Below, one piece after another: positions 1 to 55,628 of a stretch of 64,000 nt of DNA (positions within the stretch are counted from its first letter, which is position 1; each line of letters begins with the position of its first letter). The stretch is taken from contig OX388344.1 in the NCBI GenBank assembly GCA_947579665.1, positions 14,378,346-14,442,345 of the forward strand. The letters run 5' to 3'. Made by a program: the position numbers and the translations under genes. Below the pieces are notes generated by a model. It was given only the letters and a program-made list of their open reading frames with translations, had not been told where the DNA came from and ran no database searches. This DNA is from Sympetrum striolatum. Its lineage: Eukaryota; Arthropoda; Insecta; Odonata; Libellulidae.

Positions 1-949
1 TCTTTACTGTTGAACGTACTATGCAGCACAAAAGAATATCGCCATCTCTAACTATGTGTGAAAATTCAAGCAGAAATATTGGCTACAACTGCCTCAAAAG
101 ACGTACTTATTTTCACGAATTTAAATGGCTCTCTGGATTCGAACCAAGGACGATCTTGGAAACCAAAAAAATGTTTCTGAAAATTATTTATGATTTTTAT
201 CTACACGCCGAATTTCAAGTTTCTATATTGTTGGGAAAGGGTTCAAAATAATTATTGAAAATCGGATCAGTTACCGATATTAGAGAGGCCTGGTGTCGAA
301 CCAAGGACACATTGACAGCCGGGAATGCACAGTTTGATTTGTATACACTGAATCTTTCATAATGCAAAGTTTGAAGTCTTTATCGCGCCGGGAAGTACCT
401 ATAATTTGTTTCCGTTATCTCCGTAAGAAATGCATTGAGGAATTTAAATGTCCCTCTGGGATCGAACCAAGGACCATCAGCGAATATCTAAAATTTGATC
501 CTGAAATTTATTATTGATCTCCAACTCCATGCCGAATTTCAAGTTTCCATTCCATCGGGAAAGGGTCCAAAATAAATCTTAAAAATCTCCACAATGCAAT
601 TTAAACGGCCGATTTTTGCCCCGACCTAGCATCGAACCCAGGATGTTTTCCGTTAAAACCCATTTATGTTTTCGATAGATCATGACTATATATATAGGCT
701 CCTTGAGTTTTAATTTTCTACCTATACGGGAAGTATTTTTTTTTAATTCCCGAAAATCAGAGCAATGCATTTAAACGGGAAAAATCGGGACTTTGGGGCC
801 CTCTGGAATCGAACCCATGACACCGAGGTTCAAAATCGCAATTTTCCTGGAGGTTATACGTTATGGCCAATATGTGGTAAAAATTTCAAGCCATTGAGGC
901 TAGTGGTTTAGCCTGTGACTTCGTATCCTCTCTATATATATATATATAT
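1..949 (+). repeat. Satellite monomer, type A, 5'-partial
   Basis: Cut by the window start. Five B-box-like cores remain near 139, 297, 463, 632 and 810. It ends in an AT-rich spacer at ~930-949. Confidence 0.85.
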
Positions 950-2085
950 AGGAGTAAAATGTAGCTTGCATACTGCAAGCAGATCGACAACACTAATTTC
1001 ATAACGGCATTATATCGGGACTGTCCCGGAAAGGAAAAAAAGGATTGAAAATATTCTGAAAATTCGCTGCAATTAAATCGTCTGGTATCGAACCCGGGTC
1101 TTTTTGGTGAAATTTCTATGCAGCACATCAGAAGATCATCTTCTCTAAATACGTGTGATAATTCAAGCAGAAATATTGGCTGCAACTGCCTCAAACGAAG
1201 ACCTACTTTTCACGAATGTTAATAGCTCTCTGGATACGAACCAAGGACGATCTAGGAAATATAAAATATGTTTCCGCATTGTATCTATAAGTTCTATATA
1301 TATGCCGAATTTCAAGTTTTAATATTATTGGGAAGGGGTTCAAAATAATTCTTAAATATCGGATCAGTGACTGATTGTAGAGACGCCTGGTGTCGAACCC
1401 TGGACGTATTGGAAGCTGTAAATGCAAAAAATGACTTGCTAGGACTTGATCTAATTTCATACAAGGTTTGAAGTTGATAGCATGCCGGGAAATACCTAAA
1501 TTTTGTTTCCGTTATCTCCGTAAGAAATGCATTGAGAAGTGCAAATGACCCTCTGGGATCGAACCAAGGACCATCAGCGAACATGTAAAATTTGATTATG
1601 AAATATATTCGCGATATCTATCCACGTGCCGAGTTTTATGTTTCCATGTTATCAGGAAAGGATCCAAAAAAAATCTTCAAAATCGCCGCAATGCATTTTA
1701 AACGGCCTATTTTTGCCCCGACCTAGCATCGAACCAAGGATAATATTCGTAGATGTCTTTATGCTTTTCTTTAGATATCTTTGGCATCTAGCGATCCCTC
1801 CAATTTCAACTCTCTACTTTCCCGGGAAGTGCACCAAAAAAATTTTCGAAAATCCCCGCTATGTATCCTTAGGGAGAAAATCGTGACTTTGGGGCCTTCT
1901 GGAATCGAACCCATGACACCGAGGTTCAATGTCGGCTTTTTCCTGGAGGTTACACGTTATGGCCAGTACGTCGTAAAAATTTCAAGTCAATGACGCTTTT
2001 GGTTTAGCCTGTGAATTTGTATCCTATCTGGGTATCTGGGTATATATATGAATGAATCCGGAGAAGCATCTATATCTATTATCTA
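950..2085 (+). repeat. Satellite monomer, type A
   Basis: A full unit with the hairpin near 964 and cores near 1089, 1237, 1393, 1559, 1729 and 1904. The 1237 core is mutated (ACGAACC). Its end forms one arm of a long palindrome with the next, inverted monomer. Confidence 0.9.
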
Positions 2086-2135
2086 TTATATATAGATGCT
2101 TCTCCGGATTCATTCATATATATACCTATATAGAT
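2041..2135. repeat. Long perfect palindrome at an array inversion point
   Basis: Two ~36-bp arms containing GAATGAATCCGGAGAAGC and its reverse complement, around a short AT-rich loop. The inverted similarity continues outward through both flanking monomers, so the whole junction could form a large cruciform. Confidence 0.9.
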
Positions 2136-3242
2136 AGATAGGATACAAATTCACAGCCTAAACTACAAGCGTCATTGATCTGAAATTTTTATGACATATT
2201 GGCCATAACGTGAAACCCCCAGGAAAAAAGAGACTTTGATCCTCAGTGTCATAGGTTCGATTCCAGAGGGCCCCAAAGTCCCGATTTTTCCCGTTTGAAT
2301 GCATTGCCGTGATTTTCGGGAATTAAAAAAAAATACTTTCCGGATAGGTAGAGAAGTAAAACTCAAGGTGCCTATATTTATGGTCTTGGACTTTCGAAAA
2401 CATCAATGACTTTTACAAAAGTTATCCTGGGTTCGATGCTAGGACGATGCAAAGATCTGCCCTTTAAAATACATGGGAGCCGTTTTTCATTATTTTTTTA
2501 GATGCACTTATCGAAATGATAGGATGTTCGTGCTTGGCTGGAAGATGTATGGTACGAATAAGTTTTAGAAAAAAATTTTCATAAGACCGTACTGTTCCTG
2601 GGTTCGAAGCCAGAGCACAATAACGTTTCTCTCATAAGGAATATAAAGGAAAAGTAGGACGTCATTTGAGGCAGTTGTAACCAATATTTCTGCTTGAATT
2701 TGCATACGCGGTTAGAGATGGTGTTTTTCTTTTGTGCTGCATAGAAAGTATTGCCTGAAAGACCCGGGTTCGATGCCGGGCGGTAAAAATATCACCCATA
2801 TATAATACTATGGGGTATCTTTTCATAATTTTTTTATGCATTTATCGATATGTAAGGGAGCTCTTGCTTAGATGGAAGATGTATATTAACACTTTGTTTA
2901 AGAAAAGAAATAGATAAGACCATGCTGTTCCTGGGTTCGATGCCAGAGCACATTATAATTTCTCAAATAAGGAGTGTATGTGAATAGTAGGACGTCGTTT
3001 GAGGTAGTTGCACCTAATAGTTTTGCTTGAATGTTCACACATAGTTTGATATGGTAATTTTCTATTTTGCTGCATAGTAAGTACACCAGGAAGACCGGGG
3101 TTCGCTGCCAGGTGATTAAATTGCAGCGAATTCTACGAATATTTTGAATTTTTTTTTTCTTTTGATGTCCGTCCCGATATGATGCCGATATGAAATTAGT
3201 GTTGTCGATCTGCTTGCAGTAAGCAAGCTACATTTTACTCGT
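2086..3242 (-). repeat. Satellite monomer, type B, inverted
   Basis: A full type B unit on the minus strand with cores near 2252, 2431, 2603, 2768, 2935 and 3099. It is nearly identical, in inverted orientation, to large parts of 9060-9930 and 12528-13440. The hairpin copy near 3220 has a base change. Confidence 0.9.
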
Positions 3243-4375
3243 ATATATATATAGATGCTTCTCCGGATTCATTCATATATATACCTATATAGATAGATAG
3301 GATACAAATTCACAGCCTAAACCACAACCGTGATTGAGTTGAAATTTTTATGACATATTGGCCATAACGTGAAACTCCCAGGAAAAAAGCGACTTTGATC
3401 CTCAGTGTCATGGGTTCGATTCCAGAGGGCCCCAAAGTCTCGATTTTTCCCGTTTAAATGCATTGCTTTGATTTTCGGGAATTTTTAAAAAATACTTCCC
3501 GGATAGGTAGAGAATCGAAAATCTAGGAGCCTCTATATGTGGTCATGATCTAACGAAAACATAAATGAGTTCTATGGAAAATATCCTGGGTTCGATGCTA
3601 GGTCGAGGCAAAAATCGGCCGTTTAAAATGTATTGTGGCGATTTTTAAGATTTTTTTTGGACCCCTTCCCGATGGCATGGAAACTTGAAATTCGGCATGG
3701 AGTTGGAGATTATAAATATATTTCATAATCAAATTTAACATATTCGCTGATGGTCCTTGGTTCGATCCCAGGGCGCCATTTACATTTCTCAATGCATTTC
3801 TTACGGAGATAACGGAAACAAATTTTAGGTACTTCCCGGCATGCTATCGACTTAAAACTTAGCGTGATAGAAGAACCAGTCTTAACAAATCAAACTATGC
3901 ATTCATAGCTATCAATGTGTCCTGGGTTCGACACCAGGTGTCTCTGCAATCAGAGGTTGATCCGATTTTTAGGAATTATTTTGAAACCTTTCCCAACAAT
4001 ATAGAAACTTGAAATTTTCTATATGGATTGAGATCATTAATAAATTTCAGAAACATTTTTTAAATTTCCAAGATCGTCCTTGGTTCGAGCCCCGAGAGCC
4101 ATTTACATTCGTGAACATTAGAGCGTCTTTTGAGGCAGTTGTAGCCATTATTCCTGCTTGAATTTTCACACATAGTTACAGATGGTGATCTTCTATTGTG
4201 TTTCATAGTAGGTTTACCAGTAAGACCTGGGTTCGATGCCAGACGATGAAATTTCAGCGAATTTAAAGAAAAAATTAAATCCTTTTTTTTTCTTTTGAGG
4301 ACCGTCCCGATATAATGCCGATATGAAATTAGTGTTGTCGATCTGCTTGCAGTATGCAAGCTACATTTTACTCGT
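3243..4375 (-). repeat. Satellite monomer, type A, inverted
   Basis: A full type A unit on the minus strand with cores near 3415, 3590, 3760, 3926, 4083 and 4231. It ends in the hairpin block at ~4345-4375, which faces the hairpin of the next plus-strand unit. Confidence 0.9.
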
Positions 4376-4423
4376 ATAATAGATAGATATATGAATGAAT
4401 CCGGAGAAGCATCTATATCTATT

Positions 4424-5030
4424 ACGAGTAAAATGTAGCTTGCCTACTGCAAGCAGATCGGCAATACTAATTTCATATCGGCATAATATCGGGACGGTCC
4501 TCAAAATAAAAAAAAAATGATTGATATTTTTCTTAAAATTCGCTGACAATTCATCGTCTGGCATCGAACCCGGGTCTTTACTGTGAGCTTCTCTGCAGAA
4601 AAAAAGAAGATCACCATCTCTAGCTATGTGTGAAAATTAAAGCAGAAATATTGGCTACAACTGCCTCAAATGACGTTCTAATTTTCACGAATGTAAAGTG
4701 CTCTCTGGATTCGAACCAAGGACGATCATGGAAATATAAAGCATGTATCTGAAAATTTTTTATGATCTCTATCTATTTGCCGAATTTCAAGTTTCTATAT
4801 TATTGGGAAAGGTTTCAAAATAATTCCTAAAAATCGGATTAACTTCTGATTGCAGAGACACCTGGTGTCGAACTCAGGACGTATTGTAAGCTGTGAATAC
4901 ACAGTTTGATTTGTAAATACTTGCTCTTGTATCATGCAAAGTTTGAAGTCTATAGCATGCCGGGAAGTACCTTAATTTTGTTACCGTTATCTCCGTAAGA
5001 AATGCATTGAGAAGGGCGAATGGCCCTCTG
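4424..5030 (+). repeat. Satellite monomer, type A, truncated
   Basis: Only the first ~600 bp of the unit are present, with cores near 4565, 4711 and 4867. It breaks at ~5031 inside the fourth sub-repeat, where an inverted copy begins. Confidence 0.85.
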
Positions 5031-5588
5031 AACAAAATTTAGGTACTTCCCGTTATGCTATCGACTTCAAACTCTGCATGTAGAAAGATCAAGTCCATAC
5101 AAATCAAACAGTGCATTCACAGCTATCAAAGTGTCCTGGGTTCGACACCAGGTGTCTCTGCAATCAGAAGTTGATCCGGTTTTTAGGAATTATTTTGAAA
5201 CCTTTGCCAATAATATAGAAACTTGAAATTCGGCATATAGATAGAGATTATAAATAACTTTCAGAAATATTTTTTAGATTTCAAAGATCGTCCTTGGTTC
5301 GAATCCAGAGAGCCATATAAATTCGTGAAAATTAGAACGTCTTTTGAGGCAGTTGTAGCCCATATATCTGCTTGAATTTTCACACATCGTTAGAGATGGT
5401 GATGTTCTATTGTGCTGCATAGTAAGTTCACAGTAAAGACCCGGGTTCGATGCCAGACGATGGAATTTAGGCATATTTTAAGAAAAATTTAAATCCATTT
5501 TTTTCTTTTGATGGCCGTCCGGATATGATGCCGACATGAAAATAGTGTTGTCGATCTGCTTGCAGTATGCAAGCAACATTTTACTCGT
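5031..5588 (-). repeat. Satellite monomer, type A, truncated and inverted
   Basis: The counterpart of the preceding truncated unit: minus strand, cores near 5139, 5297 and 5446, ending in the hairpin block. Together the two halves form a tail-to-tail inverted pair that lacks the distal sub-repeats. Confidence 0.85.
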
Positions 5589-5635
5589 AATAGATATAGA
5601 CGCTTCTCCGGATATACTTATATATATATATATAT

Positions 5636-6757
5636 ACGAGTAAAATGTTGCTTGCATACTGCAAGCAGATCGACTACACTATTTTCATGTCGGCATCATA
5701 TCGGGACGGCCATCAAAAGAAAAAAATTGAATTGAAATTTTTCATAAAATTCGCTGAAATTCCATCGTCTGGTATCGAACCCGGGTCTTTACTGTGAACT
5801 TACTATGCAGCCCAATAGAACATCACAATCTCTAACTATGTGTGAAAATTCAAGCAGAAATAAGGGCTACAACTGCCTCAAAAGACGTTCTAATTTTCAC
5901 GAATTTAAATGGCTCTCTGGATTCGAACCAAGGACGATCTTGGAAATCTAAAAAATGTTTCTGAAAGTTATTTATGTTATCTATCTATATGCCAAATTTG
6001 AAGTTTCTATATTATTGGCAAAGGTTTCAAAATAATTCCTAAAAATCGGATCAACTTCTGATTGCAGAGACACCTGGTGTCGAACCCAGGACACTTTGAT
6101 AGCTGTGAATGCACTGTTTGATTTGTATGGACTTGATCTTTCTACTTGCAAAGTTTGAAGTCGATATCGTGCCGGGAAGTACCTAAAATTTGTTTCCGTT
6201 ATCTCCGTAAGAAATGCATTGAGGAATTTAAATGTCCCTTTGGGATCGAACCAAGAACCATCAGCGAATATGTAAAATTTGATTATGATATATTTTTATG
6301 GTATCCAACCTCATACCGAATTTCAAGTTTCAATGGCATCGGAAAAGGGTCCAAAAAAAATCTTAAAAATCGCCACAATGCATTTTAAACGGCCGATTTT
6401 TGCCCCGACCTAGCATCGAACCAAGGATAATTTTCGCAGACGTCTTTATGGTTTATTTTAGATATACACGGCATCTAGCGATCCCTTGAATTTCAAATCT
6501 CTCCTTTTCCGGGAAGTGCCTCAAAAAAATTTCGAAAATCACCGCCATGTATTCTTATGGGGAAAATCGCGACTATGGGGCATTCTGGAATCGAAACCAT
6601 GACACCGAGGTTCAATGTCGGCTTTTTCCTGGAGGTTAAACGTCATGGCCATAACGTCGTAAAAATTTCAAGTCGGTGGCACTTGTGGAACATGGTTAGA
6701 CTTTTGATCCCCTATCTATTATATATAGATGCTTCTCCGGATTCATTCATATATATA
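5636..6757 (+). repeat. Satellite monomer, type A
   Basis: A full unit with cores near 5777, 5924, 6080, 6247, 6416 and 6590, spaced 147-174 bp apart. The next core, in the following monomer, is ~309 bp on because the AT-rich spacer and hairpin intervene. Confidence 0.9.
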
Positions 6758-6758
6758 T

Positions 6759-7919
6759 ACGAGTAAAATGTTGCTTGCATACTGCAAGCACATCGATAAG
6801 ACAAATTTTTTGTCGACATCACACAGAGTGAGTCCTTAATAGAAAAAAAAATGGATGGAAAATATTCTTAAATTTCGCTGCAATTTATTCGTCTGGCATC
6901 GAACCCGGGTCTTCCCGGTAATACATACTATGCAGCACCATAGAAGATCACCGTCTCTAACCATGTGTGAAAATTCAAGCAGAAATATTAACTGCAACTG
7001 CCTCAAACGACGTCCTACTTTTCCCTTATATTCCTTATGAGAGAAATGTTAATGTGCTCTGGCATCGAACCCAGGAATAGTACGGGCTTCTGAATTTTTT
7101 TTCCTCAAACCTATTCTTTTCATACATCTTCCAGTCGAGCACGAACTTCCTATCATTTCGATAATTGCGTCAAAAAATAATGAAATACTAACCCAATGTA
7201 TTTTAAACGGGAGACATATATGCCGCCCGGCATCGAACCCGGATCTTTCTGGTAATACTTCCTATGCAACATAATAGAAGAATACTCTCTCTAACTATGT
7301 GTGAAAATTCAGGCAGAAATATTGGCTGCAACTGCCTCAAACGACGACTTACTTTTCCCTTATATTCCTTATGAGAGAAATGTTAATGTGCTCTGGCATC
7401 GAACTCAGGAACAGTACGGGCTTATGAAATTTTTTTTCTGAAACCAATTCTTAATATATATCTTCTGGCTGAGCGAAAAGTTCCTTACATTCCGGTAGAT
7501 GCATCAAAAAAATTAATGAAAATCTATCCCCATGCATTTTAAATGCGGGATATTTGCATCGTCCTAGCATCGAACCCAGGACGTTCTCATTAGTAGTCAT
7601 TAATGTTTTTAATAGTTCTTGAATATATCTGTAAGCTCCTTGAATTTCAATTCTCTACCTGTCCGGGAAGTATTATTTAAAAAAATTTGAAAATCGCCAC
7701 CATGTATCCTTATGGAGAAAATCAGGACTTTGGGGCCTTCTGGAATCGAACCCATGGCACCGAGGTTCAAAATCGGCTTTTTCCTGGAGGTTACACGTCA
7801 TGGCCATAACGTCGTAAAAATTTAAAGTCGGTGGCACTTGTGGAACATGGTTAGACTTTTGATCCCCAGTGTATATATCTATTATATATAGATGCTTCTC
7901 CGGATTCATTCATATATCA
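6759..7919 (+). repeat. Satellite monomer, type B
   Basis: Cores near 6899, 7055, 7223, 7399, 7570 and 7748. More diverged than the other type B units. The spacer module at ~7880-7915 is in the flipped orientation. Confidence 0.9.
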
Positions 7920-7920
7920 T

Positions 7921-9058
7921 ACGAGTAAAATGTAGCTTGCATACTGCAAGCAGATCGGCATATTAATTTCATATCGGTATCATTTTGGGAGGGTCCTCAA
8001 AAGAAAATAAAAGGGTTGTAAATTTTCTTAAAATTCGCTGAAATTTCATCGTCTGGCATCGAACCCGGGTCTTCCTGGTAAAATTACTATGCAGCGCAAC
8101 AAAAGATAACCATCTCTAACTATGTGTGAAAACTCAATCAGAAATATTGGCTACAACTGCCTCAAAAGACGTTCTAATGTTCACGAATGTAAATGGCTCT
8201 CTGGATTCGAACCAAGGACGATCTTGGAAATCTAAAATTTGTTTCTGAAACCTATAAATGATACTTATATATATACCGAATTTCAAGTATCTATACTATT
8301 GGAAAGGTTTCAAAATAATTCCTAAATATCGGATCAATTTCTGATTGCAGAGACACCTGGTGTCGAACCCAGGAAATATTGTAATCTGAGAATGCAAAGT
8401 TTGATTTGTAAGGGCTGGCTTTTTTATCCTGCAAAGTTTGAAGTCGATAGCATGCCGGGAAGTACCTTAATTTTGTTACCGTTATCTCCGTAAGAAATGC
8501 ATTGAGAAGTGCAAATGGCCCTCTGGGATCGAACCAAGGACCATCAGCGAATATGTAAAATTTGATTATGAAATGTATTCATGATCTCCAACTCCATGCC
8601 GAGTTTCAAGTTTCCATGCCATCGGGAAAGGGTCCAAAGAAAATCTTAAAAATCGCCACAATGCATTTTAAACGGCCGATTTTTGCCTCGACCTAGCATC
8701 GAACCCAATATATTTTTAGTAAAACTCATTTATGTTTTCGATAGATCATGAACATATATAAAGGCTCCTAGATTTTCGATTCTCTACCTATCCCGGAAGT
8801 ATTTTTTAAAAATTCCCGAAAATCAAAGCAATGCATTTAAACGGGAAAAATCGAGACTTTGGGGCCCTCTGGAATCGAACCCATGACACTGAGGTGCAAA
8901 ATCGCAATTTTTCTGGCGGTTACACTCTATGGCCAATATGTCGTAAAAATTTCAAGTCAATGACGTTGTGGTTTGTTCTGTGAGTTTGTATCCTCTCTAT
9001 ATATCTATTATATATAGATGCTTCTCCGGATTCATTCATGTATCCATATATATATCTA
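7921..9058 (+). repeat. Satellite monomer, type A
   Basis: Cores near 8060, 8206, 8364, 8528, 8699 and 8877. The spacer module is flipped. Confidence 0.9.
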
Positions 9059-9059
9059 T

Positions 9060-10229
9060 ACGAGTAAAATGTAGCTTGCATACTGCAAGCAGATCGACAA
9101 CACTAATTTCATATCGGCATCATATCGGGACGGACATCAAAAGAAAAAAAAAATTCAAAATATTCGTAGAATTCGCTGCAATTTAATCACCTGGCAGCGA
9201 ACCCCGGTCTTCCTGGTGTACTTACTATGCAGCAAAATAGAAAATTACCATATCAAACTATGTGTGAAAATTCAAGCAAAACTATTAGGTGCAACTACCT
9301 CAAACGACGTCCTACTATTCACATACACTCCTTATTTGAGAAATTATAATGTGCTCTGGCATCGAACCCAGGAACAGCATGGTCTTAACTATTTTTTTTC
9401 TTAAACAAAGTGTTAATATACATCTTCCATCTAAGCAAGAGCTCCCTTACATATCGATAAATGCATAAAAAAATTATGAAAAGATACCCCATAGTATTAT
9501 ATATGGGTGATATTTTTACCGCCCGGCATCGAACCCGGGTCTTTCAGGCAATACTTTCTATGCAGCACAAAAGAAAAACACCATCTCTAACCGCGTATGC
9601 AAATTCAAGCAGAAATATTGGTTACAACTGCCTCAAATGACGTCCTACTTTTCCTTTATATTCCTTATGAGAGAAACGTTATTGTGCTCTGGCTTCGAAC
9701 CCAGGAACAGTACGGTCTTATGAAAATTTTTTTCTAAAACTTATTCGTACCATACATCTTCCAGCCAAGCACGAACATCCTATCATTTCGATAAGTGCAT
9801 CTAAAAAAATAATGAAAAACGGCTCCCATGTATTTTAAAGGGCAGATCTTTGCATCGTCCTAGCATCGAACCCAGGATAACTTTTGTAAAAGTCATTGAT
9901 GTTTTCGAAAGTCCAAGACCATAAATATAGGCACCTTGAGTTTTACTTCTCTACCTATCCGGAAAGTATTTTTTTTTAAATCCCGAAAATCACGGCAATG
10001 CATTCAAACGGGAAAAATCGGGACTTTGGGGCCCTCTGGAATTGAACCCATGACACTGAGGTGCAAAATCGCAATTTTTCTGGCGGTTACACTCTATGGC
10101 CAATATGTCGTAAAAATTTCAAGTCAATGACGCTTGTGGTTTGTTCTGTGAGTTTGTATCCTCTCTATATATCTATTATATATAGATGCTTCTCCGGATT
10201 CATTCATGTATCCATATATATATCTATAT
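9060..10229 (+). repeat. Satellite monomer, type B
   Basis: Cores near 9198 (AGCGAACC variant), 9362, 9529, 9695, 9867 and 10045 (ATTGAACC variant). Nearly identical to the inverted monomer at 2086-3242 over several hundred bp. Confidence 0.9.
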
Positions 10230-11373
10230 ACGAGTAAAATGTTGCTTGCATACTGCAAGCAGATCGACAACACTATTTTTATGTCGGCATCATATCGGGA
10301 CGGCCATCAAAAGAAAAAAATGGATTGAAATTTTTCTTAAATTCGCTGAAATTCCATCGTCTGGCATCGAACCCGGGTCTTTACTGTGAACTTACTATGC
10401 AGCACAATAGAAAATCACCATCTCTAACTATGTGTGAAAATTCAAGCAGAAATATGGGCTACAACTGCCTAAAAAGACGTTCTAATTTTCACGTATTTAA
10501 TGGCTCCCTGGATTCCAACCAAGGACGATTTTGGAAATCTAAAAAATGTTTCTGAAAGTTATTTATAATTTTTATCTATATGCTGAATTTGAAGTTTCTA
10601 TATTATTGGCAAAGGTTTCAAAATAATTCCTAAAAATCGGAACAACTTCTGATTGCAGAGACACCTGGTGTCGAACCCAGGAAATACTGGTAGCTGTGAA
10701 TGAGCAATATAATTAATTAGGATTTAATCTTGTTTTTTACAAAGTTTGAAGTCGATATCATGCAGGGAAGTACCTAAAACCTTTTTCTGTTATCTCCGTA
10801 AGAAATGCATTGAGGAATGTAAATGGCTCTCTGGGATCGAACCAAGGACCATCAGCGAATATGTAAAATTTGATTATGAAATATATTTATGATCTACAAC
10901 TCCTTGCCGAATTTCAAGTTTCCATGCCATCGGGAAAGGGTCGAAAAAAAATCTTAAAAATCGCCACAATGCATTTTAAACGGCCGATTTTTGCCTCGAC
11001 CTAGCATCGAACCCAGGATATTTTCCGTAAAACTCATTTATGTTTTCGATAGATCATGACCATATATATAGGCTCCTTGAGTTTTGATTCTCTACCTATC
11101 CGGAAAGTATTTTTTTAAAATTCCCGAAAATCAAAGCAATGTATTTAAACGGGAAAAATCGGGACTTTGGGTCCCTCTGGAATCGAACCCATGACACTGA
11201 GGCTCAAAATCGCAATTTTTCTGGAGGTTACACGCTATGGCCAATATGTCGTAAAAATTTCAAGCCAATGACGCTTGGGGTTTAGCCTGTGAGTTTGTAT
11301 CCTCTCTATATATATATATATATGATATATGAATGAATCCGGAGAAGCATCTATATATAATAGATATATATAT
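10230..11373 (+). repeat. Satellite monomer, type A
   Basis: Cores near 10369, 10516 (mutated, TTCCAACC), 10673, 10838, 11008 and 11186. Confidence 0.9.
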
Positions 11374-12527
11374 ACGAGTAAAATGTTGCTTGCATACTGC
11401 AAGCAGATCAACAACACTAATTTTATGTTGGAATTATATAGGAACGGTCCTCAAAAGAAAAACAAATGAATAAAAAATTCCTTAAATTCGCTGAAATTTC
11501 ATCGTCTGGCATCGAACCCTGGTCTTTAATGTGAACTTACTATGCAGCACAATAGAAGATCACCATCTCTAACTATGTGTGAAAATTCAAGCAGAAATAT
11601 TGGCTGCAACTGCCTCAAAAGACGTTCTAATTTTCACGAATGTAAATGGCTCTCTGGATTCGAACCAAGGATAATCTTGGAAATCTTAAACATGCTTCTA
11701 AAATTTATTTATGAACTCTATCTATATGCCGAATTTAAAGTTTCTATATTATTGGGAAAGCTTTCAAAATAATTTCTAAAAATCGGATCAACTTCTGATT
11801 TCAGAGACACCTGGTGTCGAACCCAGGACATATTGTAAGCTGTGAATGAAAAGTTTGATTTGTAAAGACTTGTTCTTGTATCATGCAAGGTTTGAAGTCG
11901 ATAGCATGCCGGGAAGTACCTAAATTTTGTTTCCGTTTTCTCCGTAAGAAAGGCATTGAGGAATTTAAATGACCCTCTGGGATCGAACCAAGGACGATCA
12001 GCAAATATGTAAAATTTTATTATGAGATATATTTATGATATCTAACCTCATGTTGAATTTCAAGTTTCTATGCCATCGGGAAGGGGTCCAAAAAAAATTA
12101 TCAAAACCGCCGCAATGCATTTTAAACGGCCGATTTTTGCCCCGGCCTAGCATCGAACCAAGGACAATATTCGATGATGTCTTTTTATTTTCGTTGGCTA
12201 TGCACGGCCACTAGCGATTCCTCGAGTTTCAATTCTCTGCTTTTCCTGGAAGTGCCTCAAAAAAATTTTCGAAAATCCCCGCCATGTAATCTTATGGGAA
12301 AAATCGGGACTTTGGGGCCCTCTGGAATCGAACCCATGACACTGAGGATCAAAATCACAATTTTTCTGGCGGTTAATTGTTATGGCCAATACGCAATTAA
12401 AATTTGAACTCAATCACGCTTGTGGTTTAGGCTGTGAATTTGTATCCTATCTATCTATATACCTATCTATATACCTATCTATATATATGAATGAATCCGG
12501 AGAAGCATCTATATATAATAGATATAT
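11374..12527 (+). repeat. Satellite monomer, type A
   Basis: Cores near 11514, 11660, 11818, 11983, 12153 and 12328. The spacer module is in the direct orientation. Confidence 0.9.
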
Positions 12528-13440
12528 ACGAGTAAAATGTTGCTTGCATACTGCAAGCAGATCGACAACACTAATTTCATATCGGCATCATATCGGGACG
12601 GACATCAAAAGAAAGAAAAATTTCAAAATATTCGTAGAATTCGCTTCAATTTAATCGCCTCGCAGCGAACCCCGGTCTTCCTGGTGTACTTACTATGCAG
12701 CAAAATAGAAGATTACCATATCAAACTATGTGTGAAAATTCAAACTAAACTATTAGGTGCAACTACCTCAAACGACGTCCTACTATTCACATACACTCCT
12801 TATTTGAGAAATTATAATGTGCTCTGGCATCGAACCCAGGAACAGCATGGTCTTATCTATTTTTTTTCTTAAACAAAGTGTTAATATACATCTTCCATCT
12901 AAGCAAGAGCTCCCTTACATATCGATAAATGCATAAAAAAAATTATGAAAAGATACCCCATAGTATTATGTATGGGGGATATTTTTACCGCCCGGCATCG
13001 AACCCGGGTCTTTAAGGCAATACTTTCTATGCAGCACAACAGAAAAACACCATCTCTAACCGCGTATGCAAATTCAAGCAGAAATATTGGTTGCAACTGC
13101 CTCAAATGACGACCTCCTTTTCCTTTATATTTCTTATGAGAGAAACGTTATTGTGCTCTGGCTTCGAACCCAGGAACAGTACGGTCTTATGAAAATTTTT
13201 TTCTAAAACTTATTCCTACCATACATCTTCCAGCCAAGCACGAACATCCTATCATTTCGATAAGTGCATCTAAAAAAATAATGAAAAACGGCTCCCATGT
13301 ATTTTAAAGGGCAGATCTTTGCATCGTCCTAGCATCGAACCCAGGATAACTTTTGTAAAAGTCATTGATGTTTTCGAAAGTCCAAGACCATAAATATTGG
13401 GTTTTACTTCTCTACCTATCCGGAAAGAATTTTTTTTTAA
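12528..13440 (+). repeat. Satellite monomer, type B, 3'-truncated
   Basis: Cores near 12666, 12831, 12997, 13164 and 13337; the sixth sub-repeat and the spacer are missing. This is the right edge of the array. Positions 13441-13510 are unique AT-rich sequence before the piggyBac element. Confidence 0.9.
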
Positions 13441-17970: not shown

Positions 17971-18711
17971 TTTTGCAAAATTAAATTAAAAACAATGGTC
18001 ACATGACATTGAGGCAAGAACCAATAGCAAAGAAAATGAATAAAAAACCTTATTCTGGTCGTATATTATTATTGTTTTCGAATTGAATTTTCGAGATTTT
18101 ACACGAAATACACGAAAATCTTCGTAAATTTTGTGAGTATAAACAACCGGTCCCCCTGACGAAAAATGCCGTAGTTGAGTCCAAGATCCTGCGTTTTGGC
18201 CTATTTGAAATTAAGAAGAAGAGAAAAGTTGCTGGTTTTGTTCACATTGATGAGCATAATCAATATTTGAAAGTGATTTAAATGATCAATTTTCGAAAAA
18301 CGAAATGTGAGTTAATTTGATGCCGAATGTTGTATTCAGTTAAATTCATTTGTATTGTTTTGGAAATGTGTTATCGAAAAGCAAAGTGAGAGTTACTTTG
18401 ATTGCTGCATTCAATTCAATTAATTTCTTTAGTTATTTTCCAGTTGATCATCGTCAAATACAACAGTACGCGTTAACACATCAAATGCTGTGGCAGATAA
18501 TGGATACTAATAAATGATATTTATATAAATAACGAAAATTCTCCATCCAAACGCGAGAGCAGAGCTAGCGTAACGGACTATGTCCTTTCTTTTCTCTCCC
18601 TCTCTTCTCGAGAGAAACGCTCGCCGGCCCGAAATTTGGACTTAGTTTTTCTTGGTGGGTCAGGGGTGGTAACTTTTTTTTGCTGTTAGCTGTACAAACA
18701 GTGAGCTCGAT
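17971..18711. other. No recognised gene
   Basis: AT-rich DNA with a short pyrimidine-rich CpG-containing patch at ~18550-18640. Nothing further identified. Confidence 0.5.
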
Positions 18712-19335
18712 AAGGAATATCGAAGGTAACATTACCTGTGATTCGAAGAGGAAAGCGAACATTCTAAACGAATTTTACCACAGCGTATTCACGTCAGATT
18801 TTAACATAGAAATCCTCCCTAAGGTTAATATACTGGATTCCATGCCAAATATAAGTTTGACGACAGATGGTATAGTTAAAATCTTACGCAAATTTGAGCC
18901 CAATAAGTCGACAGGGCCAGAAGGCATTCCGGCAAGAGTGCTTAAAGAACTGGCAGAAAGCGTCGCCCCTTATCTCAAAATTATATTTTTAAAATCTATA
19001 AATGAAGGTAGGGTCCCATCCGATTGGAAATTAGCTAATATTACTCCTGTTTACAAAAGCGGATTAAAGGAGGACACAGGAAATTATAGACCCATATCAT
19101 TAACTTCGCTTTCCGAAGGTAATGGAACATATCGTCGTAAGCTCACTCATGGGATTTTTTTAGATAGATATCAATTCCTCGACGTGAACCAGCATGATTT
19201 TCGAAAGTCTAGATCACGTGAAACCCAATTTGCTCTATTTGTACACGATATCTTAAAGTCTGCCGAGAGTAAAAAGGAAGTGGACGCTATTTTCCTCGAT
19301 TTCAAAAAAGCATTCGATAGAGGAGATTGCGGATG
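18712..19335 (+). pseudogene. LINE reverse transcriptase, N-terminal half
   Basis: It encodes the fingers/palm segments NKSTGPEGIPARVLKE, ANITPVYKSG, NYRPISLTS and palm motif A (DAIFLDFKKAFD), in the family's order. Directly after KKAFDR the sequence jumps to EEIADDSVIF in another frame: the catalytic ADD motif normally ~100 residues downstream. The segment between motifs A and C (QHGFR is present upstream in altered form, VPQGSVLGP is absent) has therefore been deleted. The frame continues recognisably to about 19590 and then acquires stops. No function is expected. Confidence 0.85.
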
Positions 19336-20143
19336 ACTCGGTTATATTTAGGGAAATAACAAACGAGGAAGACCGGACATCTCTCTCAAACGATTTAGTC
19401 CTCATCCAAAGGTGGTGCAAAAAATGGGAATTAGATATTAACGTGGGTAAATGCTCCGTAGTTAATTTCTTCGAAAAGAAAATATTGCGTTCAAATCACC
19501 CATACAAAATTAATGGAATTAATCTAAAAGTAGTATATTCAGTTGAATATCTCGGAATCAACATTACTAATAACTTAAATTGGAGCACGCATAATTGAAA
19601 AATCTGAGGCAAAGCAAGTAAAAGGCTTGGCTTATTAAGCGTATTGTCGGTAAATGCGATGAAAATGTGAGAGAGCGATGTTATTTTACCTTGGTCAGAC
19701 CCCAAATGGAATATGCGGCAAGTATATGGGATTCGGCGGATGAAACTTGTACGTGCGAACTCGAGAAAGTGCAGCGTAAAGCGGTTCGTTTTGTTAAGGA
19801 ATGCTACGATAAAAAAGCACAAAAATGCTCTCAGACGTAGGTTGGGAATCCTTGAAAGAAAGGAGATTGGAAGCTAGGCTGCGTTTGCTTAATAAATTCA
19901 GGGAAACTACATTTTCGGAAGATACAATCGGTATCATGCAACCCCCCTGCTACCTTGGTTGATCCGATAATGACCGTAAGTTAAGAGGAATAGATGCTAG
20001 GACGAATCGTTTAAAAAATCATTCTTTCCGCGAACGATACGCGACAATAACCGAATAAGGAAGTAGTTTAGATACAAACAGGTGTTTACACCCGCTGCCA
20101 CACGCCAAAAGGCGGCTTGTAGGGTATTAATGTAGATGTAGAT
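18712..20143 (+). mobile_element. Non-LTR retrotransposon (Jockey/CR1-like), 5'-truncated, internally deleted
   Basis: A reverse transcriptase remnant is followed by a degenerate C-terminal region and a 3' end reading GGCGGCTTGTAGGGTATTAA, then repeated TGTAGA units typical of a LINE tail. Similar 3' ends lie at 28608-28668 and 39236-39385, so the family has several copies here. Multiple stops in the second half show it is dead. Confidence 0.85.
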
Positions 20144-31158: not shown

Positions 31159-32905
31159 GTCGCGGAGAGGGTTTTCAGTAAACCAACTGATTAGCGAGTT
31201 AGAGGAAGCAGATCGTGAGTTTGGTACCCAAACAATTATAATTACTGGCCCTGAGGAAGGACCTGAGGCCATTACTGACGAAGATTCTGATGCTTCAGAT
31301 CTGGAGGTTGCAGGCAATCCTACTCATCTTCCAAGAAGGATATTAGATGCTGAAGGAGAGTTGGATACTCAAGTAGAAGCGGATGGAGAATTTACTGAGG
31401 AAATGCATCAAACTTCTAGATCTAAAGGACCTTGAAGATCTAAAGTAGCTCAAAAAACATCAGGTACTCCCAGAAAGTGGTTTAGAGGCATGAAAAAATG
31501 TAATTTCAAAATTCCGGATTTTGTCTCGCATGTTTTGCCTGCAGCTTTTTCCAAAGATCAGTATCCATTCCAATCTTTTCAAGTTTTCTTCTGCATTGAG
31601 TTATGCAATTTAATTATGCATCAAACAAACCTGTACGCACGCTCAAGGGGGAATCATGGGTTTAAGGTAACTTTTGAAGAGATATATGCCACTATAGGGA
31701 TATTTCTCTTCTCTGGCTATCATGTTTTGCCTAGGAGGCGAATTTATTGGAATACCGACGAAGACTGCGATGTCAAAATTGTTCGGAATACATGCAGAAG
31801 GAATAGATTTGACGAAATTCTTCGTTATCTCCATTTAGCGGACAACTCGAAAATGGATGTCAATGACAAGCTTTATAAAGTGCGACCTATGTTCGATCTT
31901 TTGAACGAAAAATTTAAACTTGTGTCACCCGGCAGGAATTGTTCTGTAGATGAGTCCATAATTCCCTATTATGGTAGACATGGTGCAAAGCAGTTTATCA
32001 GGGGCAAGCCAATACGGTTTGGGTTCAAACTGTGGTGTTTAGCAGAATCAAGTGGATACTTGATTCATGCAGAGCCTTATTCAGGATCTAGCACGGGACT
32101 GAAAAAAACTCCTCTGGGCCAAGGCGGTGACGTAGTTGTAGGGTTAGCAGAAAAAAGTAATCTACGAAAAGGTACAAGACTTTTTTTTGATAACCTTTTC
32201 ACATCCCAAACGTTATTAGATTACCTAAGAGAAAAAGGGTTGGGAGGATCAGGTACATTGAGAGAAAACCACGTCGACTATAAAACCTATCAGCTGACAG
32301 ATAAAAGTAAATTCAAAAAAAATCCAAGAGGAACCATAGACGAGAGAAACAACGGTAATCTGGGCATTGTTCGATGGAATGATAATGCAGTAGTTACAGT
32401 TATGACAAACTGCATTGCAGGAGAGAGAAAAGTTGCTTCTCGGTATTCTTCTCAAGAAAAATATCGCATAAATATTCCCATACCTCATGTTATCTCTGAG
32501 TATAATAAACACATGGGGGGAGAAGATCTTAGCGACCAATTTTTAGCAACTTATAGGACAAGCATAAGAACAAAGAATTGGTGGTGGCCACTCTTTGCGT
32601 GGGCAATCGATATTTCTTGTGTACAGGGTTGGTTACTCCATAAGCGACTGGGCAATAATATGGATTACCTGCAATATCGCAGAGAATGTGCCTTGTATCT
32701 GATGAAACATTATGGAAAACCACCAGTGGGACGTAGATTCGGGCATACGGGCAATATTAGGAAAGATCGTCTGGATCATCTAATTACAAAAGGATCCTCA
32801 AAATATAAAGTATGTCATCAATGCAAGAAAAGAACTGTGTACCTCTGTCGTAAGTGTGAGGTTTCCTTGCACCCTGAATGCTTCATCCCATATCATGAAA
32901 ACTGA
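31139..32905 (+). CDS. piggyBac transposase, one in-frame stop
   Basis: One frame runs 589 codons from the first ATG to the TGA or TAA at the end, apart from a TGA at 31433-31435. The usual family length is ~590 residues. The N-terminal part is acidic, as in relatives, and starts SRRGFSVNQL. The core carries the catalytic Asp triad in its known contexts: SVDESIIPYYGRHG, LFFDNLFTSQ and HMGGEDLSDQF. WWWPLFAWAID follows the third. The C-terminus is a Cys-rich RING/PHD-like zinc domain (CHQC...CRKCEVSLHPECF). The enzyme would cut and paste at TTAA without footprint. The start is probably created by splicing (see leader); the unspliced ATG would add seven residues. The single stop, possibly a CGA-to-TGA change, makes it a recent pseudogene unless it is polymorphic, read through or an assembly error; a 471-residue product from the ATG at 31490 would still hold the whole catalytic core. 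Confidence 0.93.
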
Positions 32906-41100: not shown

Positions 41101-44100
41101 CTTATATATAAAGTTGTGCACAAACCTTCACAGTTCACATTCATTTATTATTAAACAGTAATGGTCTTATTATCACGAAAGAATTACTCCTCTTTGCAGT
41201 AAAATATTCAGTTGAACCTGGGCACGGGGTCCACCAGCGCGACATGAGCTTCAAAAGAGTTTTTTGATGCCGTAAATTGAACCCAATTTCTGCAAAACTC
41301 GGGTGGTACATAGATAACATTATTGTAGGAAGACTTGAGGGACACAGAATGATTATAATGGAAGACAAAAAGTTACGAATGAAAATTATACACTGGCGCA
41401 CTCAGTGCACCAGCGCGAGTGCTCGAGGGTTAAAATTACCCTCTTCTACATTTGACAGTCTATGGAGTTCAACATGGGTAAGGAATCTGGATGTTATTGG
41501 GTCAACCATGTTTCTTCACATTTCCAATTAACGATCACATTTAAAAAATAGGCATAGGAATGTTTAATATAGTGGAATCCTTGCCCACATACTTCTTACA
41601 CAGGAAGTGGAGGATCAATATCCATAAACTAGTTATACTAAGAGTCTGTGACCACCCAAAATTCCTTTTATTCACTCTTTGCTTACTATGGGGGTAAACA
41701 AGGTTGAAACTCAAAAGAAACTTCACCCTATAACTACTATGTGTGAATGGCCACTCTGTATCACCCACTTTGATTAAAACTCATTTTGAGGGGTTTTCAA
41801 ATTAATTTGATCTCATTGAGAATATTTTGGTGATTTTTATCAAAACTAAAATTGACTGCCATTAGTGAGATCTTGGATTTGGAATCTTAAAATTAAAATC
41901 TGTAAGTTTTACCCATAATAATTACTTTAAATTTTTGTTTCTATCGTACCATAAAAACGTATACATATAAATTTAGAAAGTGATAGGATGATCATACTTT
42001 GCTAGTCAGATTCATGCATTCGTCTGTTTTTCTTTTCAGTTCATCCTGTACATCATGAAGCTGCCGTTGGGCCTTTTCTGCTGATTCCTTTGCTCTATGG
42101 AGTTCGGTTTCCAGCCTCTCAATCTGCTCTGGACCATGTCCACAGTTGGGACAGATGCCATTCTCCTCCCCAAGCCTCAACGTTTCTGAAAGTTGCTGCA
42201 CCACACTTCTCAAGAATCCAGGCTGCAAAATTATAAGGATTCACTTCATAAAAATTTTAAGGAGAGGAAAATGTATGAAATTGCAAACTATGGCCACTCT
42301 TTCAGTAAACGTTTGTTGACCCTGATTTTAGATAGTTCATGATTTCTACACAAAGAAACGAACAATAATAGATAAGTTGATGATGGAAATAATTTCATTC
42401 TAAAGAATAACACATTACTAATAAGACTTGAACTTACCAGTGCATAATGTGGAAATTTTGTGTTCAATTGACTATTTTTTTAAAGTCTTAAAACTTTTAA
42501 AATGAAGTTTTAAACCATACCAAGTTCCAAAATAAAGCTTGCCATGGACATAAATACCTATATGCAAAGAGTAACTAGTATAGTAACTAGAGTATAGTTA
42601 CTCTATGCCTATACGTATGTATGCATTTTTGACTTCCAGAATTTTGTTTATGAATATTTTATTATTATTATTATGTTAAATCACCACCAGGTGGCAGAGT
42701 TTGGTATTTTACAATGATGTTCATAAATTCAAGTCATGGATAGACATATTACAACAGAACAATTTAAGGTGATTAAAGGTTATAAAAGGTGATTCATTAA
42801 CATTTCATGATTTAAACTCAAAAATAATACTTTTACTATATCAAGTTGAAAGAAAAACAATACCCAATTATACACTCATTTTAAGAAGTAATTCCCTCAT
42901 ATCAGTTCAAATAACAAAAGAAAAGAATGTTTGGAATTAAATTGCTCTTATTAATCACAGGCGTGAAAGATTTTTCTATTACTGTAATTCTCCAAATAAT
43001 GGAAGGATAACATTCCTGAGTCCTAAACCCTTGGAAAATTTAAAGAACCCATAATTGAACTTTTAATCTTGAATTTACACTGGGTTAGTTATGCGATCTT
43101 ACTTTGTAATGCAAAGTAAATAATTTACCTTAATTTTTTCTGGACTCATCTGATCATCGTCATTTGAAGATGACATGGAGGTGCTAGACATTCCCGAATC
43201 CCACTGAACTCCTCTCCTAAGGTGATCATTTATGCATTTCAGCTGCTTACAGGATGTCACTATCTCTTCTTGTAGCTTGCAGAAGAATAAATCAAAAGAA
43301 TATAGAGTACCTTTTCAAATAGATTTATACATATTTTTTTAGAAATATGAAAGGGGCTGATATAATACACAAACTTTGCAGCATATTTTAATTATGGTAA
43401 AGTAGGATTAGGGCTTTCACTGTAGACATATTTCTTCTATTCATCCCAGCCAAACTTAAATAAACAACTTTTATTATAGTTAGCCGGATATTGAGGAAAC
43501 CCATGACAATAATAAAGAAAGGAAGAAAGAGGATGGGGAAGAAAAACATTTCTTGGTTAGATTAATGAGAGGGGAAGTGTTTAGGAAGTTGTAATGTATA
43601 AAAAGGCTAATTTACTTTTAAAATGTACAAAAAGATTGCTTTACTTAGTCCAAAAACAGCTGTGAAATAAAATAAATTGTGGAAGTTAGGAAGTACAGTG
43701 TGTTATTATGGCTTTCCATGGTATCTGGCTGACTTCATATTGCATACTGCAAGCATATCGATAAAATTAATTGTAAGTCAGAATCATATAGAGTGAGTCC
43801 TTAAAATAAAAAAAAATGGATTGAAAATATTCTTAATATTCGCTGCAATTTATTCATCTGGAGTCGAACCCGGGTCTTCCCGGTGATACTTTCTATGCAG
43901 CACAATCGAAGATCACCATCTCTAACTATGTGTGAAAATTCAAGCAGAAATATTAGCTGCAACTACCTCAAACGACGTCTTACTTTTCCCTTATATTCCT
44001 TATAAGAGAAATGTTAATGTGCTCTGGCATCGAACCCAGGAATAGTAAGGTCTTATGAAATTTTTTTTCTTAAACCAATTCTTACTATACATCTTCCAGC

Positions 44101-44843
44101 CAAGCAGGAACTTCCTATCATTTCGATAAGTGCATCAAAAAAATTGAAATACTAACCCAATGTATTTTATACGGGAGACATATTTTCCGCCCGGCATCGA
44201 ACCCGGGCCTTTCTGGCATTACTTTCTATGCAGCACAACAGAAATTCACCATCTCTAACTATGTATGCAAATTCACGCAGAAATATTGGTTGCAACTGCC
44301 TCAAACGACGTCCTATTTTTCCTTTATATTCCTTATGAGAGAAATTTTAATGTGCCCCGGCATCGAACCCAGCAACAGTTCCGTGTTATCTATATTTTTT
44401 TCTTATACCAATTCTTACCATACATCTTCCAGCCAAGAACAAACTTCCTATCATTTCGATAAGTGCATCAAAAAAATTAATGAAAAACTACTTCCATGTA
44501 TTTTAAAGGGCAGATATTTGCATCGTCCTAGCATCGAACCGAGGATATCTTCAGTGAAAATCATTTGTGTTTTCGATAGATCATGACCATATATATAGGC
44601 TCATAGAGTTTTGATTCTCTAGCTATCTGGAAAGTATTTTTTTTAATTAATAATAATAATAATTCCCGAAAATCGAAGCAATGCTTTTAAATGGCAAAAA
44701 TCGGGAATTTGGGGCCCTCTGGAATCGAACCCATGACACTGAGGATCAAAACCGAAATTTTTTTGGCGGTTTCACGTTCTGGCCAATACGTCGTAAAAAT
44801 TTCAAGTCAATGACGCTTGTGGTTTAGGCTGTGAATTAGTATC

Positions 44844-44903
<60 letters not shown>

Positions 44904-47900
44904 ATGAATGAATCCGGAGAAGCATCTATATATAATAGATATTCAAAATGCTAGTGAAGCAAATTTACCCAAATTATTCAGGAAATACAGCATTATATTT
45001 AGAGCATAGTCATTGAACATCTTCTTCATGAACCAGTGTCTGAAGTTGAAGGTTTTCCCGAAATTTGTCAGCAGGCATATCAACTAACACCACTGAAATT
45101 ATAAAGAGGCCTCTGTTCTGTATAATGTACCTGCATATGGCCATGCTTAGGCTGATAGTGGTACTGAAATAAAATAATTTATGGAAGCTACAAAGTGCAG
45201 CATGTTTCTTCATTATAAACAACTTTTCATTGGTGTCCTGCGGCACTTCTCTCTTCACTAACTCTCTTCAATACTAATTTTATAGGAATAAATATTAGTT
45301 CTCAGTTTCATTTTAGTTAAAAGTTACAGAGAATTATTTTTACTTCAAGCTCAGCTGCAATTCCAGCATATATATTCTCTTATTTCTTGTTTTTCCCATG
45401 GGTTTCAGTACAAATTGGATGCCATGTCTAAAGAGAAAATTTGTTATTTTTGCTGCATCATCTTAATTTTCATTTGCAGGTAAAACATAATTTTATTTTT
45501 GAGGAACCAAAAGAATCCAACAGGAAATCCGAAATACTGTTGACTTTTAATTACCTAGTTAAATTATCATATTTGAAATTCAATCACTTTGGCCTTCAGT
45601 TGGTGGAACATCTATCAACTGCATTCATTAATTAAACACCATATTTAATATATGAGGTTACCTAACATATTAAAAGATATAAAAGAATACTAATAACATT
45701 AAAAAATACAAAAGAAGTAATAAGTACACAATAGAACCATTTATCTGACTACCCTTTACATAAAAGATGACATATGCCAGAAATAAAGAAATTCACATAA
45801 TTAAACATTTTATTACCTTGACACTTAATTGTCTATGTAGTTGTAATGAAAATTAAGAGATGTGGATCGACTAATATGTGAATTATTGGATCTAAATTGA
45901 TTTTTCACATTACTTATATTTTTCTGATGTGTAAATGATTTAATTTTCATAGTTTTTCACTTACTGATCTCATTTCCGTTGAGTGTAAGCTTGAGGAATC
46001 CATTAGTATATCATCATCACATTCAATCTCAGATGAACTTTGTTGATGAAGTTGAGTCAAAGATGTGTCTGAAACCTCCATCTCATTCAGAAGCGATCTA
46101 TGTCCTGCTGATGACGATGTTGTTGATGATGCTGGAGTTAATGCTTCGAGCCTTTCACAAAGAGTGCCATTGGTTGTTCTAAGGTCATCCAGTTCCCTAG
46201 TGACATGACGGAGCTATAATAGAATGAATTTCAAATTTTCATTAACAGTTCTAGGTAATAAAAATGTCTGTCAATGTATCTTATACTGAATAACTCTTTT
46301 GAGTATAGTATTATTATTATTATTAGGGTCTTTATTAGGCGAGATTGAGACTAAAAGTCTCCTCTTCCATCTAACCTGTGTAGTATAAGTACTATAGTAT
46401 AATATATAAGAATAAGAAGGATCACAGGTAAAATTTAATGGATGAAAATTAAACTTTATTAAACCCAAAGTAAGGTTACTAAAATGAATGGAAAAATAGT
46501 TTGACTCACAAAACAGAGAGCAAAGGATCCTTCTAACAATATGTCACTTATAAAATACAAGCCAATATTCGTTTCACTCTAATCCCAATTAAACACTTCT
46601 CATACCAAATATTTTGGAATAAAAGAGCAATTTGTTTAAATTTGTCAATTGATTATTTACCTGAGAATCTTGCTCCTTCTGTTGCTTTTCAAGCATTACT
46701 ATTCGATCTGCAGATTCCTCCAAAGCAGAATTCAGGGATTCTCTTTCATCCAAAAGTTGTTGAACTCTTCTCTCCAAATCATTTTTTCTTTCAGTCATCA
46801 GAGTTATCTGGAAGATGATATTAATGCATTTCTTTTTATATATTTTATAAATTGATTGCAATAGTTTCATTTAGCTGCAGTTACCAATTTTATTCTGAGC
46901 TCCTTTAAGATAAAGAAGAAACATTTAGAAGCCAGAAAGTATTTTTTTCTATAATTAAAGTTTGCATTTATTAATTTATGATTAAGATTGACAGCAAAGA
47001 AAATATAAAAAACTGGTAGAATACATACATACTTATAAAATAGAAACTATAATATTGTTACAGTGAAATCTCATGGGAGAAAAAGAGATGGATTTTGCCA
47101 TTGTGGCATGAATAAAGACATAAAATTGTGATGTTTAATGCTTTTTGAATGCATCATTTATAGAGCTTCATCTATGATTTAGTTCACCAAGATCTTCCTA
47201 GCAGTATACCTGAGTGTAATGATCTGAACATTTTACTTCAATTATTTGGAAAAGGGCTCCCAGATAGTCATGTGGACAGCACGTTTGCCTTTGGTGGAAG
47301 CGGTCCCGGGTTCGATTCCCGGTGGGAGCCAATGTGCGAAATGACCTAAGCTGTCGAAGCACTTTTAACAATACTACTACTACTACTACTATTTGGAAAA
47401 GAAATAAAAACTACATCAGATTTTACTTGTTATCTCTGTATCTCATTCCTAATTTGTCTGTATTTCTTTATTAATATGAATAAATTTGACTTTATAATGG
47501 ATTTTTTTCCAATTAGGTATTGTTTTCTCCTTGATTTTTGAATGACATCACCTCGATTGAGTTGAAGGCTTTGAACCCTTTCCAGATTCCATACTCATTT
47601 TGCTACATGAATCAAATAACTTTGATTAAGTCATTGTTCTCTATCCTTTTCAAGAGTGTTCTCTCTCTAAATTAGGCGTAATTAACAGGCAGGCAGTTTT
47701 CATTCTCATTAATAAATCATTTATTATGGGAAGAGGCTTATATGAAGATAATCAATTGGATCTACATCCCCCATATTGAGTAGAGTGGATAATTTTATCC
47801 TTTTGGGGTATTTAAGTGTTCCAGCATGTTCTTTACAGTTAATTGATATCTTCCAAAAACCTGAATCCATGAGGGAGAAACTTTACCAAGCCCTTGCCTT

Positions 47901-55228: not shown

Positions 55229-55513
55229 ACTATATTTTTACAATAATCGATAGAGGAATTTTATCAAACGCCATGTTGATACCCGCATCTTTTATTTCGG
55301 TGATGCTTAGTATACTGTAATATTGTTATAAAATTATAAATTGTATTTGTAAAATAAATATCAAAAATTAATTTTTGGTTGGCTGTTATTACTTTCTCCA
55401 TTTACGAAGTATAGAGTAAGTATTATTTTCATGAAAAAATCGACTTCGAGATTTCAACGGAAATACATGTTTTGGGGTCCCTAGAACACATTTTGACCAT
55501 TTTCGGAATGATG

Positions 55514-55543
55514 TCTGTGTGTATGTGTGTGTGTGTGTGTGTG
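55514..55543. repeat. (GT)n microsatellite, copy 1
   Basis: About 14 GT units with one TA interruption. Confidence 0.95.
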
Positions 55544-55596
55544 ATAATGGGCGCTCTAACGTGAAAACTATCAGTCGTATCATTTTCGGAATGATG

Positions 55597-55628
55597 TCTG
55601 TGTGTATGTGTGTGTGTGTGTGTGTGTG
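55597..55628. repeat. (GT)n microsatellite, copy 2
   Basis: Same context as copy 1, within an ~85-bp duplication. Confidence 0.95.

Follow-up and report, generated by a model that had tools for sequence, protein, structure and literature searches.

The 64-kb window analyzed here (contig OX388344.1 of the dragonfly Sympetrum striolatum, positions 14,378,346 to 14,442,345) begins with a long array of a repeated element and holds a further, single copy of this element among the exons of a bicaudal-D-related gene. Each unit of the array is ~1.15 kb long and consists of six slots of ~165-bp sub-repeats, and each sub-repeat contains a short core that matches the B box recognized by TFIIIC, a transcription factor of RNA polymerase III (pol III). 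A sequence-only reading of positions 1-13440 had described a satellite with six diverged sub-repeat classes. The array and the six slots stand; however, the slots are filled by nine classes that form two unit types differing in the three middle slots (type 1: A-B-C1-D1-E1-F; type 2: A-B-C2-D2-E2-F), and the repeat is not confined to this region. The array extends leftward past the window to a total of ~34 kb (left edge near C9:14357612), with 86-87% of the bases inside sub-repeat matches in two 10-kb stretches adjoining it on the left, and the unit also occurs singly (Table 1). The cores are spaced by 165 bp on average (range 147-191; 62 same-strand neighbors in the array and the isolated copy), and those within one unit all lie on the same strand; spacing and core density agree with the earlier description. 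The units themselves occur in either orientation, with palindromic junctions.

The exact core GGTTCGANNCC was found 57 times in the window by pattern search, 50 of them within 1-13440, whereas 100 dinucleotide shuffles gave at most one match. Our hand-made list of sub-repeats has 76 entries for the window and 70 for 1-13440; it excludes an off-register match with one mismatch at 6300 and includes a hand-added copy with two mismatches at 12661. All 70 array sub-repeats carry the core with no more than two mismatches (50 exact, 19 with one, and one with two), consistent with the earlier estimate of about 70 occurrences in 13.4 kb. A core-blind profile, in which the core and its edges were randomized but which was still built from copies recognized via the core, gave 77 matches in the window. 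One of these is truncated by the window edge; the other 76 (70 in the array and six in the isolated copy) cover the place of the core, and all 76 have it with at most two mismatches. Among all fetched loci, this applies to 386 of 388 core-spanning matches, and the remaining two have three mismatches. As a sequence match, then, the B-box motif, which is named as a feature of extra-TFIIIC sites, is present in every sub-repeat of the window. A search by exact pattern found no relatives in the viral contigs or prokaryote genomes searched.

The core is also conserved well above its flanks, as the sequence-only reading had expected; the opposite outcome that it named, conservation no higher than in the flanks, was not found. 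Parsimony within classes gave eight events at 81 core sites versus 784 at 1187 flank sites, such that the core changes ~7 times more slowly (Poisson p = 1e-14, assuming site independence), and none of 20,000 random draws of nine positions outside the core had a rate as low. For CpG bases, the flanks have 0.88 events per base (39 CpGs), compared with two in 18 for the core. In a tree of 366 sub-repeats, the mean number of events per site is 4.9 in the core and 20.5 in the flanks, with 12 and 18 at the two N positions; 22 of the 185 flank sites are no higher than the highest core site, which has 10 events. Minority letters within classes amount to 1.4% in the core, 5.7% at the N positions, 7.2% at the edges, and 11.9% in the flanks. 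No second block with core-like conservation was seen across the sub-repeats.

The variants that do occur in the core are mostly private to one copy. Based on 329 sub-repeats (308 after removing identical ones), singleton and shared alleles number 24:5 in the core versus 481:661 in the flanks (Fisher's test, p = 1.3e-5). The result is similar for 366 sub-repeats (29:7 versus 566:750; p = 8.8e-6) and with the overlapping locus L002 left out (28:7 versus 571:740; p = 1.9e-5). For private changes, core and flanks do not differ significantly, either in arrays (0.0079 versus 0.0103, p = 0.25) or in isolated copies (0.0168 versus 0.0314, p = 0.15), whereas shared changes are far rarer in the core (arrays: 0.0068 versus 0.1073; isolated copies: 0.0056 versus 0.1041). 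Variants of the core do appear in individual copies, yet few of them are shared; mutated cores therefore rarely leave descendants. The spectrum is most simply explained if amplification requires the core.

In the structure of human TFIIIC, the B box is 11 bp long and is contacted at G53, T55, C56, G57, C61, and C62 in tRNA numbering, and binding by yeast TFIIIC is weakened 370-fold by a change of C56 to G and 56-fold by a change of G57 to C (PMC11811891). With these positions mapped onto the core letters (the mapping is our own), variation was found in 4 of 456 cells at contacted positions and in 14 of 380 at the others (Fisher's test, p = 0.005). When the N positions are omitted, the non-contacted positions vary in 6 of 228 cells (p = 0.075 versus the contacted ones). 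The N positions are filled by nine different dinucleotides and are complementary in only 11 and 8 of the 76 sub-repeats. The dyad is broken exactly there, so the core resembles a B box rather than a palindromic site, and the latter reading was rejected.

The repeat is more than a satellite: it is a dispersed element whose copies have their ends in common, and it has also been amplified into arrays. The element is ~1.2 kb in size and occurs both singly and in long arrays; by a simple rule, 8 of 23 sub-repeat runs are isolated (three to eight sub-repeats each, not all complete). The isolated copy of the window is 81.7-82.9% alike to array units over the longest matches. Where the element abuts other DNA, its common 5' end is, with small differences, TCTATTATATATAGATGCTTCTCC preceded by A. 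This A followed by TCTATT is found at six of six ends (the window copy, L003, L006, L031, L036, and L038), with the abutment judged by eye and the A possibly belonging to the element itself. The common 3' end, again with small differences, is the hairpin GCTTGCAGTATGCAAGC and then TACATTTTACTCGTA, ahead of a T: CGTA and T were found in L006, L013, L034, L036, and L038, CATA and T in L035, and L007 deviates. The GCTTGCAGTATGCAAGC palindrome lies near the 3' end in L034, L038, and most of the listed array 3' ends, and is one base off in L036. Within arrays, the 3' end of a unit joins the 5' end of the next unit or an inverted unit.

Helitrons start with 5'-TC, insert between A and T, and end with CTRR after a hairpin. 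The dragonfly element has the hairpin and ends in CGTA rather than CTRR. Its central satellite-like tandem repeats lie between two modules, as in HINE elements (non-autonomous Helentrons), and the left module carries a microsatellite, which is (CTAT)15 in the window copy but has a shorter or degenerate form in L036 and L038. HINE elements are further characterized by 11-12-bp subterminal inverted repeats. In a comparison of the first 60 with the last 110 bases, no subterminal inverted 11-mer (up to one mismatch) was found in L006, L036, or L038, and the window copy has one that is A+T-rich with one mismatch. We describe the element as HINE-like, resembling both Helitrons and HINE, and assign it to neither because three of four copies lack the subterminal inverted repeats and the 3' terminus does not read CTRR.

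The Cg_HINE elements of Crassostrea gigas, which are non-autonomous Helentrons, similarly combine dispersed copies and satellite-like central repeats with a short microsatellite in the left module and a palindrome in the right module, and their most abundant central-repeat clusters measure 140-180 bp (PMC7492417). Unlike Cg_HINE, the dragonfly element has no 11-bp subterminal inverted repeats in three of four copies, contains B-box cores, and forms unit arrays of tens of kb. The Helitron-linked satellites of Caenorhabditis elegans are another likeness, being tandem repeats around a short recurring motif that resembles a heat-shock element; one family, with its relatives, is built on AGAANNTTCT (PMC4595182). 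These satellites differ in the motif and in their much shorter repeats, and the passages considered here describe no comparable conservation test (PMC4595182).

For genome-wide abundance, the assembly (1.35 Gb, 544 contigs) contains 76,988 pairs of exact cores 146-176 bp apart and none of the reversed pattern. The fetched array loci hold 339 sub-repeats per 130 such pairs, which extrapolates to ~200,000 sub-repeats and 33 Mb, an estimate drawn from loci that were mostly selected for holding the repeat. Among 20 10-kb samples spread over contig C9, repeats are present in two and total 8.8 of 200 kb.

Table 1. Features of the window (limits of the blocks within the array are approximate).
Positions	Strand	Feature	Remarks
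1..13440	.	Part of the ~34-kb array, units with six B-box-like cores each	Continues left of the window
1..2080	-	Two type 2 units, minus-strand cores	First unit cut by the window edge
near 2044-2122		Palindromic junction	Between the block 1..2080 and the units 2087..4380
2087..4380	+	Two units, types 1 and 2, plus-strand cores	
4400..5030	-	Partial unit, minus-strand cores	
5031..5600	+	Partial unit, plus-strand cores	Palindromic junction to the following block
5633..13440	-	Mixed type 1/2 units, minus-strand cores	Array terminates within a unit
2044-2122, 7840-7934, 8966-9060, 10134-10228, 44900-44942		GATGCTTCTCCGGATTCATTC-centered block	
18680-19336		LINE reverse-transcriptase-like open frame	Judged by eye; no Pfam match at E 0.001
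31490-32905		Open frame of 471 residues, piggyBac-type transposase	PF13843; closest named proteins from Ischnura elegans (65%, whole frame) and Ladona fulva (78%, covering 62%)
34023-34385		Fragment with Tc5-type transposase DNA-binding domain	PF03221
41995-50054	-	Bicaudal-D-related exons	Exons chosen by eye; 80% to a Ladona fulva protein across the whole query
43740..44942	-	Isolated single unit, six sub-repeats	Among bicaudal-D-related exons; microsatellite at the 5' end; 3' end truncated within the hairpin
44844..44903	.	(CTAT)15 microsatellite	5' module of the isolated copy
55498-55701		85-bp tandem repeat, two copies	With (TG)n

The closest named proteins of the piggyBac-type frame and of the bicaudal-D-related exons point to an odonate host. 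The GATGCTTCTCCGGATTCATTC-centered block recurs at unit ends, flanked by A+T-rich microsatellites; it is found in both orientations, as though it flips. To the left of the array, at most 3 kb from its edge on contig C9, a strongly strand-asymmetric G-rich minisatellite of GGGGTAGGG-like units occupies positions 360-1500 of locus L039. A coding function of the units was considered and rejected; different units have several of the longest frames in corresponding positions, and a search with one 109-codon frame found no relative. Rfam matches at 2011-2166 and 5550-5674 involve miRNA and snoRNA models under their gathering scores, lie on palindromic junctions, and were taken as chance.

The sequence-only reading had also suggested that the satellite is transcribed by pol III or grew from a tRNA-like unit. 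In favor of pol III genes, each sub-repeat has a B box, and TTTT follows within 155 nt downstream of the core in 72 of 76 sub-repeats (59 of 76 for AAAA as a yardstick); as a precedent, PMC2220036 cites a satellite of schistosomes that has a functional pol III promoter. However, type 2 pol III genes have an A box upstream of the B box, and here an A-box score of at least 6 of 7 was reached in 19 of 76 sub-repeats versus 26 in mononucleotide shuffles. With no A-box excess, the data do not support canonical transcription by pol III. The T runs also start at a median of 42 nt past the core, and the single conserved block has no counterpart elsewhere in the sub-repeat. We regard pol III-transcribed sub-repeats as quite improbable. 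PRAT of Palorus ratzeburgii is a similar case of an insect satellite checked for A and B boxes, and its consensus lacks a complete A or B box (PMC2220036). A T-arm hairpin and descent from a tRNA were rejected. The T-stem pairs 53-61, 52-62, and 50-64 are formed in 75, 73, and 71 of the 76 sub-repeats (wobble counted), but 51-63 and 49-65 are formed in only 19 and 32, so that there is no full T stem, and ARAGORN detected no tRNA within the array. Rfam gave no tRNA match in the array either, a weak negative given that it also missed a tRNA-like stretch at 47257. That stretch (47257-47330) is an ARAGORN tRNA-Gln followed by an (ACT)n tract, has no Rfam tRNA match at E <=1, and looks less like a tRNA gene than like a tRNA-derived short interspersed element.

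Two further explanations concern the core itself. It may bind another protein, e.g., one that replicates or transposes an autonomous partner of the element, and its likeness to a B box would then be convergence. Filtering seems to take place when copies propagate and not at the level of the individual copy, as for a site read by mobilizing machinery, and both the extent of the conservation, somewhat past 11 bp, and the N positions of class D2, as constant as the core, would fit such a site. Yet all nine fixed positions of the B box are matched, the positions that vary among classes coincide with its free ones, and the dyad is broken; we consider binding of another protein unlikely, although it deserves to be kept in mind. 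That the core has no function of its own, and owes its uniformity to the recent spread of a few masters, gene conversion, or the way in which copies were sampled, appears very improbable. Spread or conversion would level core and flanks together, but among the same array copies shared differences amount to 10.7% in the flanks and 0.7% in the core. This explanation can draw on the private changes, which are not significantly rarer in the core (p = 0.25 in arrays and p = 0.15 in isolated copies), and on the derivation of the search profile from core-recognized copies; against it, the core-blind search of the window yielded no core-spanning sub-repeat that lacks the core.

We favor, with a probability of about 0.5, a reading in which the cores are predicted TFIIIC-only docking sites that aid the amplification of the element. 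As at extra-TFIIIC sites, which in yeast and human mostly have the B box alone (PMC6950938), TFIIIC would engage the cores through the B-box module, its high-affinity part, and no pol III initiation complex would form. Dense TFIIIC binding may keep the chromatin of the element open or gather its copies in the nucleus; either effect would favor replication, transposition, or exchange, and copies with damaged cores would leave fewer descendants. For the element's own movement, a Helitron-like route is predicted.

Several observations weigh against these predicted docking sites. The singleton excess could equally stem from weak host selection on each copy, and core change is not significantly higher in isolated than in array copies (0.022 versus 0.015, p = 0.26). 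The final base of the core, a contacted one, is T in 12 of the 76 window sub-repeats, which is the hallmark of class B. For class D2 (9748 copies), an eye tally of the first 100 in the list found the core changed in 17 and the N positions in none; therefore, within this class the N positions drift no faster than the core. Positions adjacent to the core are partly conserved (minority letters 0.072 versus 0.119 in the flanks), though not in isolated copies, and the motif may therefore exceed the B box in length. Moreover, at the extra-TFIIIC sites of C. elegans an A box accompanies the B box, which is not so in yeast and human (PMC6950938).

Among known systems, the C. elegans extra-TFIIIC sites in CeRep3 are comparable in that dispersed repeats provide many clustered TFIIIC sites, which are predicted ones in the dragonfly. 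CeRep3 repeats are suspected tRNA pseudogenes, and their sites have A and B boxes (PMC6950938); the dragonfly element differs in having the B box only, no tRNA likeness, and a ~165-bp repetition. The combination of a nucleosome-sized repeat with a conserved box, the latter a predicted binding site here, is shared with alpha satellite and its CENP-B boxes. The boxes differ: the CENP-B box motif is NTTCGNNNNANNCGGGN, and this motif has no exact match on either strand of 1-13440. In the odonates examined, CenH3 is reported as likely absent, and holocentricity is a consensus based on modest evidence (PMC4359364). A usual centromere role is thus not expected. In literature searches of titles and abstract openings, no printed account of such a repeat was present among the matches listed.

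The reason why a repeat retains a protein-binding box is usually guesswork, and here the spectrum of variants reads it directly. More tentatively than for the docking sites themselves, we suggest that the element, with six B boxes packed at nucleosome spacing and its amplification into arrays, may have recruited the host TFIIIC as a helper and supplied the genome with ~200,000 docking sites, in which case chromatin opening and clustering by TFIIIC might contribute both to the spread of the element and to the folding of a genome in which ordinary centromeres are probably missing. If TFIIIC binds the cores, this estimated number of sites would make the dragonfly genome an outstanding natural test of how extra-TFIIIC sites affect chromatin folding, as well as a test of whether mobile elements exploit general transcription factors to spread.

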